64,000 nucleotides of DNA from Algoriphagus ratkowskyi (lineage in GTDB: Bacteria > Bacteroidota > Bacteroidia > Cytophagales > Cyclobacteriaceae): the NCBI RefSeq assembly GCF_002150505.1, contig NZ_MSSV01000007.1, positions 186,001 through 250,000 on the forward strand. Direction: 5' to 3'. The translations under genes and the position numbers were made by a program. Below are positions 10,832 through 44,379 of the stretch, piece by piece. The notes beneath the pieces were generated by a model that made no database searches, was not told the DNA's origin, and was given only the letters and a program-made list of their open reading frames with translations. Within the stretch, counting starts at the first letter, position 1. Every line of letters begins with the position of its first letter.

Positions 10832-10857
10832 ACCGTGGTCTGTGTCCACACAGACCA
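10832..10857 (+). repeat. REP-like palindrome, left partner
   Basis: A 26-bp element beginning ACCG, containing TGGTCTGTG, a short loop and CACAGACCA (a 9-10 bp hairpin). Its reverse complement matches 11463-11488 at 25 of 26 positions. It lies just beyond the 3' end of the Y1 transposase gene, as one arm of a pair around it. Confidence 0.85.
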
Positions 10858-10874: not shown

Positions 10875-11432
10875 TTAAAACCTATCCATGTAATGAGTCA
10901 AGAAACCGAAATTATCAACTCCAACCTCATAAAAACGAGCTGAAGACCACCTATAGCTTTCAGGTCTATCAACTATGCCCCATCTCTCATGCAGAGGATT
11001 ATTGTGGAGATAGGTTAGCTTTTGCTCCAATTTCTCCCTCGAATCCATCAAAATAGCTAAAGGATCACGTTGCCAGACACGAAAATTCCTTTCTCCATCT
11101 TCCACTTTAAATAAAGGCAACAATTCTGGACTATAAAGCTTCAAATCCTTTACGATCATGTGGCTTGTAAACTTATTAAAACTAGCATGAGGCATTTCTT
11201 TACCATTAGGCTCCTTCATTTCCCAAATCACATGTAAATGGTTTGGCATAATCACGAATCCATACACAATTACTAATCCCCTCGTGACTAGATTTCGCCA
11301 TGATAAAATGACAATCTCTTTATATTGATCATGATTCAACAGGCATTTCCAATCCTTAATTGTATCCGTCCAAAAATACACTTCATCAAAATCCATTCGA
11401 GAATTTCGGTATTTACTCTCTTGATGTTCCAT
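10875..11432 (-). CDS. REP-associated tyrosine transposase (RAYT-like, Y1 family)
   Basis: A 185-residue single-stranded-DNA nuclease/transposase of the IS200-like Y1 superfamily. The metal-binding HxH motif is at 65-67 (FVIMPNHLHVIW) and the likely nucleophile is Tyr141 (LTYLHNNPLHERWG), with the final SSARFYE typical of RAYTs. RAYTs are single-copy domesticated relatives that act on REP hairpins. Here the gene lies between two near-identical inverted palindromes at 10832-10857 and 11463-11488, the arrangement expected of a RAYT with its own target repeats. It is intact, with no sign of decay. Confidence 0.88.
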   Translation of the reverse strand: MEHQESKYRNSRMDFDEVYFWTDTIKDWKCLLNHDQYKEIVILSWRNLVTRGLVIVYGFVIMPNHLHVIWEMKEPNGKEMPHASFNKFTSHMIVKDLKLYSPELLPLFKVEDGERNFRVWQRDPLAILMDSREKLEQKLTYLHNNPLHERWGIVDRPESYRWSSARFYEVGVDNFGFLTHYMDRF

Positions 11433-11462: not shown

Positions 11463-11488
11463 TGGTCTGTGAGGACACAGACCACGGT
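11463..11488 (-). repeat. REP-like palindrome, right partner
   Basis: Inverted copy of 10832-10857 with one change in the loop. It contains TGGTCTGTG, loop AGGA and CACAGACCA, then CGGT. It lies 30 bp upstream of the transposase start and 50 bp upstream of the glycosyltransferase start, so it could also affect that gene's leader. Confidence 0.85.
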
Positions 11489-32588: not shown

Positions 32589-32640
32589 TTATTACGTACT
32601 TTACGTAACGCTATTTACGTAACGCTATTTACGTAATATT
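32589..32640. repeat. Direct 14-bp repeats before the ATPase gene
   Basis: TTTACGTAACGCTA occurs twice in direct tandem (32600-32613 and 32614-32627), followed by a third partial copy (TTTACGTAATATT from 32628). Each unit contains the palindrome TTACGTAA, and another TTACGTA lies at 32592. They end 14 bp before the ATG of the ATPase gene, so they could be an operator or lie in the mRNA leader. Confidence 0.75.
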
Positions 32641-39467: not shown

Positions 39468-40289
39468 TTAGTGGAAAGGTGAGTCTTTTTCCTTTTTCAA
39501 TTGATTGTAGACAATATAATCCAACCTTCCTGGCATCCATTTATTTAAGAACTTCAACCACCATCCTTGTGTAGTAAGCGTCAAATCACGCTTTCTTTTC
39601 AACGTAGCTTTCAGTATTCTCTCTGCTACTTCTTCCGAACTCATCATTTTAGATTCATCTCTGGGCGAATCGCCCTGCAAAGATCCATGCGCATCCAGTG
39701 CGTTTATACGAATGTTTGAAGCAGTAAATCCAGGACAAGCCACCAGCACATGAACACCTCTCTTCATTACCTCAGTTCTAAGTGATTCAAAAAATCCATT
39801 CATGGCATATTTGCTAGCGGTATAGGCCGTTCGAGCTGGTGTACCGCGGAATCCATTGACTGAAGAAATCCCGATCACAGATCCTTTGTTCTCGAGGATA
39901 GACGGCAAACAAAACTTAGTGGCATAAACTGTACCCCAAAAATTCGTGTCCATCACTTTATGAAAGACCTTAAAATCAAGGTTTTCAAACAAGGCTCGCA
40001 TAGTTATTCCCGCGTTATTTATCAGAATATCAATTTTCCCAAACTCTGCCAATACTGTCTTTGCCATGCGCTCATTGTCATCAATCACCCCAGCATCAGC
40101 CGAAATAGCCAACACAACTATGCCTTCAGCTTCAAGCTTAGCTTTACTTAACTCCAGTTTATCCTGATTTCTGCCTGTAATCACAATCTTAGCACCAGCC
40201 TTGCCAAAGGCAAGAGCACAGGATTCCCCTATACCAGAGGAAGCTCCAGTGATGATTACTACTTTATCTTTTAGGCTGTCTTGTTTCAT
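39468..40289 (-). CDS. Short-chain dehydrogenase/reductase (SDR)
   Basis: A 273-residue NAD(P)-dependent oxidoreductase. The cofactor loop is ITGASSGIGESCA, with the structural NNAG motif following and the catalytic ISSVNGFRGTPARTAYTASKY, giving the Ser-Tyr-Lys set. This is the classical SDR layout. The C-terminal part has a hydrophobic, basic stretch (LKFLNKWMPGRLDYIVYNQL) like that of DHRS7-type membrane-near enzymes. The substrate is unknown. Its stop touches the helicase start, so the two could be co-transcribed. Confidence 0.9.
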   Translation of the reverse strand: MKQDSLKDKVVIITGASSGIGESCALAFGKAGAKIVITGRNQDKLELSKAKLEAEGIVVLAISADAGVIDDNERMAKTVLAEFGKIDILINNAGITMRALFENLDFKVFHKVMDTNFWGTVYATKFCLPSILENKGSVIGISSVNGFRGTPARTAYTASKYAMNGFFESLRTEVMKRGVHVLVACPGFTASNIRINALDAHGSLQGDSPRDESKMMSSEEVAERILKATLKRKRDLTLTTQGWWLKFLNKWMPGRLDYIVYNQLKKEKDSPFH

Positions 40290-40305: not shown

Positions 40306-40445
40306 CTGAATTGTGATTTTTAAATTTTGAATTGGAGAAAGCAACAAAAGCGATTTGCTTCAATTTCTCAGCCAAAATGCAAATTTTCTATTGAACCTTT
40401 TTCTAACCAAAAAATCAATTTTAAAGTTTTGGAATTATATATAAC

Positions 40446-40695
40446 GATTGAAGATCTAATCGCACCGCTGGTGCTTTGGCCGATTCGGAATCCTGTTATT
40501 ACAATAAAAATGCGCCGCTGGAGCTACTCAGAATATATCGAAAACCCAACAGCTAAAATATCATTCAATTAGGTCCTGAGATTAATTTTAGCTTCAGAGA
40601 AGCTTTTTATTTATAAAAAATAATCCCATTAATCTGCAAGAGCTTAAGAGAAGTGATTTTATAACTGATAACATCATCAGAGTAATTATTTGCCC
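40446..40695. repeat. Array unit 1 (most degenerate)
   Basis: P1 and P3 are perfect hairpins here. P2 (40512-40524) has GGAGC in place of the pairing arm, and P4 (40641-40654) has two mismatches. It is farthest from the transposase. Confidence 0.8.
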
Positions 40696-40947
40696 GATTG
40701 AAGATCTAATCGCACCGCTGGTGCTTTGGCTAATTCACAACCACGTATTAACAGTCAAAATGCGCCGCTGGCGTTATTAATGTAAGAATTTGTGTTTTCA
40801 GAGTCAATCACTTTTATATCGAACAATATTGGCTTTGAAACAGCTTCAGAGAAGCTTTTTGATTGTAAAATTCAATGAAAGTTGATAGGAAGAGCTTCGG
40901 AGAAGCGATTTAATATCCAAACCTATCATAGAAATTTCAATTTACCC
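40696..40947. repeat. Array unit 2 (best preserved)
   Basis: All four hairpins pair perfectly: P1 40712-40724, P2 40762-40773, P3 40842-40856 and P4 40894-40906. The block from P2 to P3 is almost the same as in unit 3. Confidence 0.85.
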
Positions 40948-41170
40948 GATAAAGATTAAATCGCACCTCTGATGCTCTGGTGGATTCGGGATCACATTGC
41001 TACAATTAAAATGCGCCGCTGGCGTTATTAATGTAGATTTTATATTTTCAGAGTCAAACTATTTTTTATCGAACAATATTGGCTTTGAAACAGCTTCGGA
41101 GAAGCTTTTTGATTGTAATTATTAATCAAAATTGATAGCACGAGCTTCGGAGAAGCGATTTATTATCTAC
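40948..41170. repeat. Array unit 3 (next to the transposase)
   Basis: P2 (41013-41024), P3 (41092-41106) and P4 (41144-41156) pair perfectly; P1 (40963-40975) carries one mismatch. The unit ends about 12 bp from the transposase stop codon, with a further GCGATTT/AAATCGC inverted repeat (41155-41182) across that boundary. Confidence 0.82.
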
Positions 41171-41181
41171 CCTAAAATCGC

Positions 41182-41655
41182 TCATAAGGGCACATCATCC
41201 AAGAATTCAAATAAATACTCATCCTTGAATTCAATTTCAAATTTCCTTAGAAGCGTCATATACTCTTCCTTAAAAGTCATTTTTTGATGATGAATCTCTT
41301 GATTCAATATATACTGATACACGTTATCGACATGAGATTTTGAATATGAAAAAGCTCCATACCCTTTCTGCCATGAGAAATTTCCGTCCGCCCACTTCTT
41401 ATCTTTTAAAAAATGGTTAGATGAGGTTTTTAATTTTTCAACCAAATCTGAAATGGTTTTGTCGGGATTTAGCCCTATAAAACAATGGACATGGTCAGCG
41501 ACTCCATTGACTATAATGGACTTGTGGCCAAGATCTTGAATCATCAAAACCATAACTTTGAAAAACTCCTGACGAAACTCCTTTTTCAAAAGACTCTGCC
41601 GCCCCTTCACGGCAAAAATCAATTGGATGTAAATCTGATGATAGGTGTTTGCCAT
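41182..41655 (-). CDS. IS200-like Y1 transposase (TnpA type)
   Basis: A 157-residue Y1-family protein. The HxH metal site is at 55-57 (VADHVHCFIGL) and the probable nucleophile is Tyr115 (VYQYILNQEIHHQ), with SWQKGYGAFSYSKSH before it. TnpA enzymes cut and join single-stranded DNA at hairpin ends. The array of repeated hairpins begins about 12 bp beyond its stop codon. No tnpB or iscB neighbour is present. All catalytic residues are intact. Confidence 0.9.
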   Translation of the reverse strand: MANTYHQIYIQLIFAVKGRQSLLKKEFRQEFFKVMVLMIQDLGHKSIIVNGVADHVHCFIGLNPDKTISDLVEKLKTSSNHFLKDKKWADGNFSWQKGYGAFSYSKSHVDNVYQYILNQEIHHQKMTFKEEYMTLLRKFEIEFKDEYLFEFLDDVPL

Positions 41656-41689: not shown

Positions 41690-42859
41690 CTAATTTACAA
41701 TCAATTGACGAAAAAACACCTTATCCTCAATAGAGTCAGGAGTTACTGCTACATAAACACCTTCCTTTAGAAAGAATAGATTGTAGCCAGAGGCACGCCA
41801 GTCCTTATTAAAATCAAATTCTCCGATTCGTTCTAGATTTTCATCATATATAATAACTGACCTCTGGTTTGGTAAACCTTTATCAGTTTTAAGTATTTTT
41901 GCAATGGATTCCTCATCATATTTCTTATAAAACAGTCTCCAGTATTCTTTTCTAAAAGGATCGTAGTTCAAGGAAAAATAGTAATCTGTTGACAATTGAA
42001 AATGTCGCTGCTTATCTGTTTGGCTTTCTTTAAAATTAATTGGATTAGGTTTTTCAATATGTGAATTACCCATCCAAAAAAATGGTGACATCTTTTCAGT
42101 TCTGAGGTCAAGCAAATAGATTGAATCTACCAGGGGAAAGCTTACTAAAATCTTATCTGGATCTTTAAAGGATGATATGCTGGGCAAAATATGGTCTGCC
42201 CCTCCCCAGTAATTCCCATCTTGGTACCATTCAGGATATCCTAAAAGTGTAGTATACTCTCCTGTTTCCAAGTCTAATTTGATCAGTAAATTCTTACTCT
42301 TGTATTGACTTTTAAATGGATCTGTATCTGGGACGCAAGGAATATACAGAAGTTTACCTTTGAGAAACATCCGTGATTTGGAGGTACTCCAGGGTAATAC
42401 AGAATCCTCATCTGGCCTATTGCCTTCGTTTTCTTTAAGCCTATACGATTGCTTAACTCTTCCAGAAGAATCCGCTAGCGAAACCGTATAGCTGTATCTA
42501 TCTACTAAAAAGATAGAATCATAGGAATGAAAATAAAACTCAGTTATGGTTCCCACTCCGTTTGGCCCTTCATTCTCAAATTCCAAAACCAAATCTAAAG
42601 CGGGATCTGCGAAGGAATTAATAAATATATAGTTTGGATTAGAACGGAAATAATTGAGATGAATATAAAGTTGATTACCATTTTCCTCAATGTGAACTTG
42701 AGAAAGTATGGAAAAATTAGTGGATTTGTCATTCACTGGAATAATCTTTTGTCCACCTAATCTGAGAATCAAATCATTCTTTTCACCCACCTTCCCGCCA
42801 CCCTTTCCACAGGAATAGAAAAATAAGGCAAGGCACAAAATCATAAAAGTGCTTTTCAT
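41690..42859 (-). CDS. DUF4221-like lipoprotein
   Basis: A 389-residue protein with a lipoprotein signal (MKSTFMILCLALFFYSC, Cys at 17). The mature part is built of repeated beta segments with aromatic and Asp residues, such as LLYIPCVPDTDPFKSQYKSK, LLGYPEWYQDGNYWGGADHI and SIYLLDLRTEKMSPFFW, fitting a propeller-like outer-membrane or periplasmic protein. It resembles the DUF4221 family, which is abundant in Cytophagales and has no known function. It stands alone with its own promoter. Confidence 0.75.
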   Translation of the reverse strand: MKSTFMILCLALFFYSCGKGGGKVGEKNDLILRLGGQKIIPVNDKSTNFSILSQVHIEENGNQLYIHLNYFRSNPNYIFINSFADPALDLVLEFENEGPNGVGTITEFYFHSYDSIFLVDRYSYTVSLADSSGRVKQSYRLKENEGNRPDEDSVLPWSTSKSRMFLKGKLLYIPCVPDTDPFKSQYKSKNLLIKLDLETGEYTTLLGYPEWYQDGNYWGGADHILPSISSFKDPDKILVSFPLVDSIYLLDLRTEKMSPFFWMGNSHIEKPNPINFKESQTDKQRHFQLSTDYYFSLNYDPFRKEYWRLFYKKYDEESIAKILKTDKGLPNQRSVIIYDENLERIGEFDFNKDWRASGYNLFFLKEGVYVAVTPDSIEDKVFFRQLIVN

Positions 42860-42972: not shown

Positions 42973-44379
42973 ATGTCGCGAAAAATGAAAAACAAAGTGA
43001 TTACCAACCTACTCATCGAGCGAATAGCTTCGGAGGGGAAATGTTTGGGACATCATGAGGAGAAAGTGGTTTTTGTAACGGGAGTAGCTCCTGGAGATGT
43101 GGTAGATGTACGGATCACCAAAGGGAAAAGCTCTTTCATGGAGGGAGAACCGGTTAATTTCCACGAATATTCCAAAGAACGAATTGATCCTTTTTGCTCA
43201 CATTTCGGCACATGCGGTGGCTGCAAGTGGCAACACATCAATTATGACTTGCAGAAAACCTACAAGCGTCAGCAGGTTTTGGATCAGTTTCAGCGCATAG
43301 CCAAAGTGGAAATCCCTGAAGTGATGCCGACTTTAGGTTCTGAAAATACTCGATACTATAGAAATAAGCTTGATTTTACTTTTTCAAATAAGAAATGGTT
43401 AACTGTTGAGCAGATCCAGTCAGGAGAAGAGTTTGACAGAAATGCATTGGGCTTTCATATCCCGAAAATGTTTGACAAAATCGTCGATGTGGATCACTGC
43501 TACTTGCAAGGGAATATCTCTAATGACGTTAGAAATGAGTTGAGAACTTTTGCGCTCGCAAATGCACTAACCTTCTATGACATTAGAGGACGAGTTGGGC
43601 TACTTCGCAATCTCATCATCCGAACCACCAGCACGGAGCAATCCATGGTGATCGTGCAATTCGGGGAAGATGATCCGGAAGGAATCCAAAAGGTAATGGC
43701 GCATTTGATTGAGAAATTCCCTCAAATCACCTCTTTGCTGTATGTGATTAACACCAAAGGAAATGAGACTTTCCATGATTTAGACTTAGTTACTTTCTCA
43801 GGAAAGGATTATATCGAGGAAGAAATGGAAGGTTTGAAATTCCGAATTGGCCCGAAATCTTTCTACCAGACCAACTCCGAGCAAGCCTACGAATTGTACA
43901 AAGTAGCGCGTGATTTCGCCGATTTGCAAGGCGATGAGGTAGTTTATGATCTCTATACGGGAACAGGCACTATTGCCAATTTCATAGCCAAAAAAGCCAA
44001 GCAAGTTATAGGCATCGAGTACGTGCCAGCTGCTATCGAAGATGCGAAGATCAATTCTCAGATCAACGGAATAGACAACACCCTTTTCTATGCTGGCGAT
44101 ATGAAAGACATGCTGAACGAGGAATTCATCGCAAATCAAGCTGCTCCAGATCTCATCATCACTGATCCTCCACGTGCCGGAATGGATGAGAAGGTAGTTC
44201 AGATGCTCTTGAGATTGAACGCTCCCAAAATCGTGTACGTGTCCTGCAATCCTGCGACTCAGGCTAGAGATGTAGCGCTTTTGGGAGAAAAATATAAAGT
44301 AGAAAAAATTCAACCTGTGGACATGTTCCCGCAGACTTATCACGTAGAAAACGTCGTACTCTTAACTCTAAAATCATGA
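42973..44379 (+). CDS. rlmD: 23S rRNA (uracil-5-)-methyltransferase RlmD
   Basis: Methylates a uracil of 23S rRNA (U1939 in E. coli) with SAM. The 468-residue protein starts with a TRAM RNA-binding domain (GKCLGHHEEKVVFV, GDVVDVRI) and has the 4Fe-4S cysteines in CSHFGTCGGCKWQ. The SAM domain follows, with DLYTGTGTIANFIAK, ITDPPRAGM and the catalytic VYVSCNPAT. ATG 42985 may be the actual start given the promoter box. The next gene overlaps by 4 bp. Confidence 0.94.
   Translation: MSRKMKNKVITNLLIERIASEGKCLGHHEEKVVFVTGVAPGDVVDVRITKGKSSFMEGEPVNFHEYSKERIDPFCSHFGTCGGCKWQHINYDLQKTYKRQQVLDQFQRIAKVEIPEVMPTLGSENTRYYRNKLDFTFSNKKWLTVEQIQSGEEFDRNALGFHIPKMFDKIVDVDHCYLQGNISNDVRNELRTFALANALTFYDIRGRVGLLRNLIIRTTSTEQSMVIVQFGEDDPEGIQKVMAHLIEKFPQITSLLYVINTKGNETFHDLDLVTFSGKDYIEEEMEGLKFRIGPKSFYQTNSEQAYELYKVARDFADLQGDEVVYDLYTGTGTIANFIAKKAKQVIGIEYVPAAIEDAKINSQINGIDNTLFYAGDMKDMLNEEFIANQAAPDLIITDPPRAGMDEKVVQMLLRLNAPKIVYVSCNPATQARDVALLGEKYKVEKIQPVDMFPQTYHVENVVLLTLKS

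Follow-up and report, generated by a model that had tools for sequence, protein, structure and literature searches.

Organization of the hairpin array

The window analyzed here is a stretch of 64,000 nucleotides from Algoriphagus ratkowskyi (positions 186,001 to 250,000 of contig NZ_MSSV01000007.1). An array of hairpin-bearing units lies in the window beside tnpA, a gene for a Y1 transposase, between two genes that mark the same junction in related genomes:

39468..40289, minus strand: short-chain dehydrogenase gene, the array-side neighbor and a marker of the common junction in relatives
40445..41170, no strand assigned: array of three tandem units of ~250 bp each, delimited by direct repeats and edge comparison
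40455..40661, minus strand: unit 1, farthest from the gene and most worn (P1 40462-40474, P2 40512-40524, P3 40590-40604, P4 40642-40654)
40705..40913, minus strand: unit 2 (P1 40712-40724, P2 40762-40774, P3 40842-40856, P4 40894-40906)
40956..41163, minus strand: unit 3, which adjoins the gene (P1 40963-40975, P2 41013-41025, P3 41092-41106, P4 41144-41156)
41182..41655, minus strand: tnpA, encoding a 157-residue Y1 transposase with DHVH, WQ and YILNQEIHH motifs
42973..44379, plus strand: gene for a 468-residue protein, the other junction marker, present in 70 of the 72 Algoriphagus genomes searched

The 468-residue protein is provisionally labeled RlmD. A DUF4221 gene (41690-42859) is situated between tnpA and this next conserved gene; among the junctions examined, it was present in G000, G029, G031 and G051 only.

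A preceding sequence-only reading had described three direct copies with a period of ~250 bp. The array was confirmed by copy starts at 40445, 40695 and 40946 (spacings of 250 and 251 bp), by a second repeated block at 40590, 40842 and 41092 (252 and 250 bp), and by a top 80-bp self-match of 73/80 in the array region compared to 45 for the best among 50 mononucleotide shuffles. The left edge (~40435) was set by eye from comparison with a relative that lacks the gene, and the right edge is blurred in that comparison by another gene. When Tandem Repeats Finder was run on the window, the array was absent from its list. The sole array listed was a 14-bp tandem repeat, TTTACGTAACGCTA, with 2.6 perfect copies at 32600-32636. 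The end of the array at 41170 is 11 bases from the tnpA stop codon, which agrees with the proximity proposed earlier. The description of the array as free of a protein frame also held: no conserved reading frame was found within it, only short frames with ATG, GTG or TTG starts, and the longest frame touching it spans 81 codons (40327-40572).

The hairpins follow the fixed order P1-P2-P3-P4 in all three units, as had been stated. The number of four hairpins per unit stood, with the correction that full Watson-Crick pairing is seen in 7 of the 12 stems (P3 3/3, P1 2/3, P4 2/3, P2 0/3) and the rest are imperfect. The P2 stems comprise four pairs with a terminal G-T in two copies, and have an internal mismatch in the first copy. 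Copies said to be nearly identical in long blocks proved to be so for units 2 and 3 (82.7% identity over 208 aligned columns), but not for unit 1, because the latter is only 62-63% identical to either of the others.

The adjoining Y1 transposase

The window TnpA matched PF01797 with 78.8 bits and passed the transpos_IS200 model NF033573 (60.9 bits; cut-off 55), but failed the REP-associated transposase model NF047646 (21.7 bits; cut-off 80). The predicted fold (pLDDT 94.5) was nearest to ISDra2 TnpA, followed by IS608 TnpA; the REP enzyme 4er8 was placed 30th among the fold neighbors. Residues H55, H57, W95, Q96, Y115, Q119 and H123 were invariant in an alignment of 34 proteins that comprised the window TnpA and 33 sequences hand-picked from 72 stop-free relatives, so that the HxH and Tyr motifs previously noted are indeed intact. 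The Y---Q--HH signature was present in 79 of 80 relatives (the best 80 of 98 by protein). Judged by sequence, the window enzyme is an IS200-type transposase with the Y---Q--HH signature and not a REP-associated transposase. The dN/dS values of 0.04-0.08 among intact tnpA orthologs, obtained from the 6 of 15 pairs with computable dS, some near saturation, indicate that these orthologs are under purifying selection.

TnpA_Y1 proteins of subclass 1.2 are characterized by DH[IV]H, WQ and Y---Q--HH motifs in the published survey (Quentin et al., 2018; PMC6006769). The window TnpA bears this signature, and its assignment to the subclass rests on motifs, phylum and length. The genome carries nine Y1 genes of such type that are 32-43% identical to the window query; a recent IS burst was therefore rejected, as the other Y1 genes of the genome are at most 43% identical to the window TnpA. 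A defense system was rejected in view of a PADLOC search without a match, a phage element because the matching PHROG is a generic family of transposases, and an Rfam family because two matches of 20.8 and 22.2 bits were below cut-offs of 77 and 42.3, respectively. A second Y1 gene in the window (10875-11432, minus strand) encodes a 185-residue protein with NHLH and YLHNNP motifs. It is RAYT-like at 66.3 bits, below the cut-off of 80. A single 22-nt palindrome lies to either side of the gene (10836-10857 and 11463-11484).

Conservation of hairpins and flanks in Algoriphagus

Fifteen units were aligned, drawn from the window and from four further species (A. antarcticus, A. yeomjeoni, A. faecimaris and A. 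algorifonticola); units of G016 and A. marinus were left out. Mean column identity was 0.90 in the hairpins compared to 0.61 in the remaining columns, and the hairpin loops were mostly unchanged across the 15 units. The 5′ flank of each hairpin, taken in its own orientation, scored 0.86-0.89 compared to 0.48-0.67 for the opposite side, the score being calculated over 7 columns instead of 12 for the two outer hairpins. Between Algoriphagus species, therefore, hairpins and 5′ flanks are kept while spacers drift. The flank is TCAAATC at the outer hairpins and TACAATCAAAA at the inner hairpins. As the conserved flank flips in mid-unit, the unit consists of two two-hairpin modules that face each other (> > < <). 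With the modules divergent in this way, the ends of the unit are inverted hairpins, as in a REPIN.

Pair cells in the alignment were still paired in 92.6% of cases compared to 34-43% when partners were slid by 1-3 columns. Two pairs were altered on both sides, in 13 cells compared to 5.7 in shuffles, and the covariation score was 0.127 compared to 0.072 in shuffles, a value reached in 0 of 500. The number of two-sided pair changes was not above that of shuffles, 394 of 500 of which reached the same number; the count of further pair types was below shuffles; and both changes track one between-species split. Thus, pairing is kept, but the evidence for compensation within the genus is thin as the numbers of changed pairs fall within shuffles and reflect a single split.

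An RNA made from the locus was among the options of the sequence-only reading. The array might act as a structured RNA or as transcription terminators that stop or protect the tnpA or dehydrogenase transcripts, which we regard as very unlikely. Terminator-like matches numbered 8 compared to 1.2 expected, six of them being array hairpins, and RNA folding of the plus strand exceeded that of shuffles (z -2.9; equaled by 0 of 20). However, folding is less striking for the strand that a tnpA transcript would have (z -1.7), wobble pairs favor neither strand (6 compared to 5 cells), and Rfam families were below cut-off throughout, which leaves the RNA option unsupported. Moreover, terminators leave the tandem multi-hairpin units, the inverted flanks and the dependence on the gene family unexplained.

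Joint presence and absence at one junction

Orthologous tnpA was located at the same junction in at least 9 of 72 searched genomes of the genus, and at least nine species have a single gene copy per genome at this conserved junction. The junctions compared were those of 30 of the 70 loci with the downstream neighbor, plus further tnpA loci. In 20 genomes without tnpA the neighboring genes are 93-434 bp apart. Short-loop hairpins were absent from 18 of these 20 gene-less junctions, and one A/T-rich hairpin of another kind was present in two. Where the gene is present and the gap is complete, hairpins number 3, 4, 7, 8, 10 and 14 in six genomes, and the window, A. marinus and G016 also carry hairpins at the junction. 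Units flank the gene on both sides in A. faecimaris and A. algorifonticola. In G031 and G051 the DUF4221 gene is present, tnpA is absent, and none of the window-type hairpins was found; the G031 gap has one unrelated hairpin. Copies in genomes without any related transposase had been named beforehand as an outcome that would count against a link between array and enzyme, and the hairpins occurred in 0 of the 20 gene-less junctions. Array and gene thus appear and disappear together at the junction. Broken tnpA orthologs (loci L014 and L020) were observed beside retained hairpins in G016, where the gene has an in-frame stop, and in G010, where it is in two pieces.

Trees of TnpA and its two neighbors, which cover 7 of the 9 species, share a split that separates G000, A. 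antarcticus and A. yeomjeoni from the rest; the finer forks of the three trees are weak and discordant. A. marinus and G016 were left out of the trees because one neighbor gene is off their contig. G017, of the same genus, has the same DNA as A. yeomjeoni.

Hairpins beside related genes in other Bacteroidota

Relatives of TnpA were sampled as the best 80 of 98 loci from a protein search. The choice was blind to hairpins since loci were picked by protein similarity alone; the hairpin definition was fixed after the array had been seen. Hairpins were counted up to 600 bp from the gene, stopping at the next frame of 80 codons. Beside the gene, these best 80 of 98 loci possess 554 hairpins in 51,255 bp (10.8 per kb) compared to 0.44 per kb in shuffled gene flanks. 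The other intergenic DNA of the same best 80 of 98 loci, to which 24 of the 80 contribute nothing and which partly includes array lying beyond 600 bp or behind a short frame, has 35 hairpins in 21,732 bp (1.6 per kb). Beside the gene, 65 loci of the best 80 of 98 have two or more hairpins with a common core, compared to 4 of 80 in other intergenic DNA. Tandem arrays that repeat at 60 bp or more were seen up to 600 bp from the gene in 19 of 80 loci and elsewhere in 1 of 80. When the proteins of the best 80 of 98 loci were clustered at 65% identity, most loci of 10 out of 10 clusters had repeated hairpins, one cluster accounting for 52 of the 80 loci. An IS3-type (rve) control, in which 26 of 30 loci were used and the rest were dropped as repeats or as loci without a frame over the match, gave 5 hairpins in 9,604 bp (0.52 per kb) and repeated cores in 0 of 26 loci.

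Hairpin similarity correlated with TnpA identity (r 0.759; 79 loci with at least two hairpins among the best 80 of 98; reached in 0 of 2000 permutations), and the correlation was 0.746 once pairs with a common neighbor gene were removed. Upstream and downstream hairpins resembled each other more at the same gene (0.741) than between different loci (0.509; 60 loci; 0 of 10,000). The other flank of the same locus ranked first in only 18 of 60 cases because related loci have hairpins in common. These correlations could be explained by joint inheritance alone and do not prove contact between hairpin and protein. In the cluster of 52 proteins, the commonest hairpin core was CGGATTAAAATCCG, in 33 loci, followed by GAGCC-GTA-GGCTC (22 loci) and GTGCC-GTA-GGCAC (21 loci), with others that include GAACC-GTA-GGTTC (10 loci) and GTTCC-GTA-GGAAC (6 loci). 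The loop is constant in these cores and the stems vary in matched pairs. As matching hairpins lie beside related genes across Bacteroidota, a transposase class described as being without a hairpin DNA partner probably has one.

Neutral tandem duplication of hairpin-rich sequence, with the transposase as a bystander and copy number changed by ordinary recombination, would account for units that are near-identical within a species, as in A. faecimaris (98.1%), for one A. antarcticus unit that is fused between two hairpins, and for one A. algorifonticola unit that is without its middle. The A. faecimaris identity and the fused A. antarcticus unit fit either TnpA action or recombination. Nevertheless, duplication of this type is extremely improbable as it is at odds with the way hairpins and flanks are preserved while spacers are not, with the joint presence and absence of gene and array, and with the association of hairpins with the gene in most relatives.

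Sister families and dispersal

All exact matches of two window hairpin patterns in their own genome (5 and 4) are inside the array. The window family is thus confined and is not dispersing in its own genome. The P1/P2 pattern also matched in G004, G014, G020 and G027, where the reversed control matched too. Among the matches listed, six exact matches to one hairpin lay outside arrays, each of them isolated.

Other Y1 genes of the genome have arrays of their own. At L203, multi-hairpin units of 206-301 bp extend over ~3.5 kb on both sides of the gene; this array spans positions 6585-10065 of L203 (contig C1). L205 (4216-6480, contig C8) contains two neighboring Y1 genes, and a separate tandem array of 181-183 bp units lies beside each of them. 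L208 has 4.4 copies of a 249 bp unit, L204 also carries an array, and L206 and L207 have few hairpins only. The outer hairpin of the L203/L204 gene family matched 50 sites with at most two mismatches compared to 0 for the reversed control; 23 of the sites are at its two genes and 27 are elsewhere in the genome. Several of the dispersed sites are whole units with inverted outer hairpins and without a gene. One such unit occupies a common intergenic place in G000, G080 and G045 and is inverted in G045 (L226 ~1100-1400 compared to L210 1299-1586). It is absent from that place in G017, G035, G060, G062 and G072, and the target site is unreadable because the species without the unit hold other sequence there. 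Two genes of the genome are above the RAYT cut-off, one of which (L267) has different hairpins; RAYT genes might be the movers of the dispersed sister units.

These data also bear on whether the locus is a classical IS200/IS605-type insertion sequence in which the end hairpins have multiplied and the whole element is mobile. The IS200 model passed by TnpA, the ISDra2 and IS608 enzymes as nearest folds, the absence of gene plus array as a block from 20 junctions, and the presence of units on both sides of the gene in two species are all in keeping with this proposal. Against it are the occurrence of just one copy in each genome, at the one conserved junction, in nine species or more, Y1 genes that point to no recent burst at 32-43% identity, hairpins that are inverted inside the unit and reiterated, and dispersed sister units that carry no gene. 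On balance, an insertion sequence of this type is unlikely.

Proposed explanation

We consider it probable that the locus is a REPtron/BIME-like system built on an IS200-type (subclass 1.2) Y1 transposase, for which the hairpins are cognate single-stranded DNA sites. The four hairpins per unit, together with the A-rich 5′ sequence, would be the sites of the adjoining TnpA, which would bind them while the DNA is single-stranded. The enzyme would then cut near the hairpins at a position dictated by the 5′ flank and rejoin the ends, the flank playing the part of the guide tetranucleotide in IS608 and REP systems. Through its inverted ends the unit would serve as the module for excision, inversion or copying, and tandem growth of units would follow. 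In this manner, units may be lost, gained, inverted or moved next to existing copies by cutting and rejoining; in the sister families, units may have been moved elsewhere in the genome. We infer that TnpA binds and cuts the hairpins under guidance of the flank, and that it, rather than ordinary recombination, changes the array; recombination between copies could be a source of changes in unit number. Five imperfect stems among the twelve in the window and the lack of both a GTAG guide and dispersal in the window family are points against a REPtron-like system.

Of the three options offered by the sequence-only reading, a set of substrates and a REP-type cluster together fit best. The REP-type label holds for the cluster, but not for an enzyme that is not REP-associated by model nor for a window family that is not spreading; the earlier interpretation as a whole is partly supported.

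More tentatively, and with somewhat less than even confidence, the subclass 1.2 Y1 enzymes of Bacteroidota may represent a second, separate REP-like origin, in which an enzyme of IS200 type rather than a RAYT is retained by the host along with its own multi-hairpin unit; the enzyme would amplify this unit in tandem and, in some families only, spread and flip it in trans. The four-hairpin unit would be the mobile module, and its two nested inverted pairs would come together in one synaptic complex. In the published survey, subclass 1.2 was left as an orphan that is near to IS200 transposases, without IS properties and without REPs (PMC6006769). The arrays supply it with candidate substrates that are suited to existing cleavage assays. 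Should the hairpins prove to be cut, two or more branches of the Y1 family would have given rise to REP-like systems, and these could be compared. Moreover, the dozens of pairs of enzyme and hairpin, in which the loop stays constant and the stem changes, would constitute natural data on hairpin choice by HUH enzymes.

Comparison with known systems

In IS200/IS605 elements such as IS608 and ISDra2, subterminal hairpins are recognized with a 5′ guide, according to the published mechanism. The window locus resembles these elements in the protein model and predicted fold of TnpA, but is without a single left-end/right-end pair or a near-identical multi-copy element, and its hairpins are inverted and tandemly reiterated. 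The RAYT-type subclass 2.6 of Bacteroidetes, as presented in PMC6006769, shares the phylum and atypical hairpins without GTAG, and has copies elsewhere in the genome. However, it is a separate enzyme branch with Y---NP, and the RAYT gene at L267 has other hairpins.

Subclass 1.2 is listed with REP "no" and the typical terminal secondary structures of IS200 are stated to be generally absent in the survey (Quentin et al., 2018; PMC6006769). The window locus resembles the subclass in the DHVH, WQ and Y---Q--HH motifs, length near 150 residues, occurrence in Bacteroidota, low copy number and low inter-copy identity. In contrast to the description of the subclass in that text as being without REPs or terminal hairpins, hairpin arrays adjoin the genes here. 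The automatic REP search reported there required GT[AG]G and stems of 7-20 nt, which the window hairpins do not possess. Hairpins beside subclass 1.2 genes are taken as correcting the class description rather than excluding membership. No literature on hairpin arrays with subclass 1.2 was found in a search to which preprints and most subscription papers were external.

REPtrons comprise RAYT/TnpA_REP genes with REP, BIME or REPIN repeats, as outlined in PMC6006769, PMC3733652, PMC3116915 and PMC8266576. The likeness to the window locus lies in a Y1 gene flanked by its own palindromes, a 5′ sequence that is conserved at every hairpin, hairpins paired in inverted orientation, clustering in tandem next to the gene, and a separate family for each gene. 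In the window array the conserved side of the hairpins flips in mid-unit so that these form inverted pairs as in a REPIN or BIME. The REPtron Mb of Marinomonas is described as having REPs with 5-bp stems and 4-nt loops that are concentrated near the gene. Unlike a REPtron, whose enzyme has Y---NP, the window locus has an IS200-type Y---Q--HH enzyme (YILNQ), TCAAATC and TACAATCAAAA flanks with no GT[AG]G or GTAG 5′ of the hairpin, a unit of four hairpins in two inverted modules, and a family that is not dispersed. Overall, the locus appears from its sequence to work like a REPtron, but its enzyme branch, its guide sequence and its lack of dispersal place it outside the REP/RAYT group. What is new is that a class described as hairpin-less has hairpins locus by locus, here in the form of an inverted four-hairpin unit.
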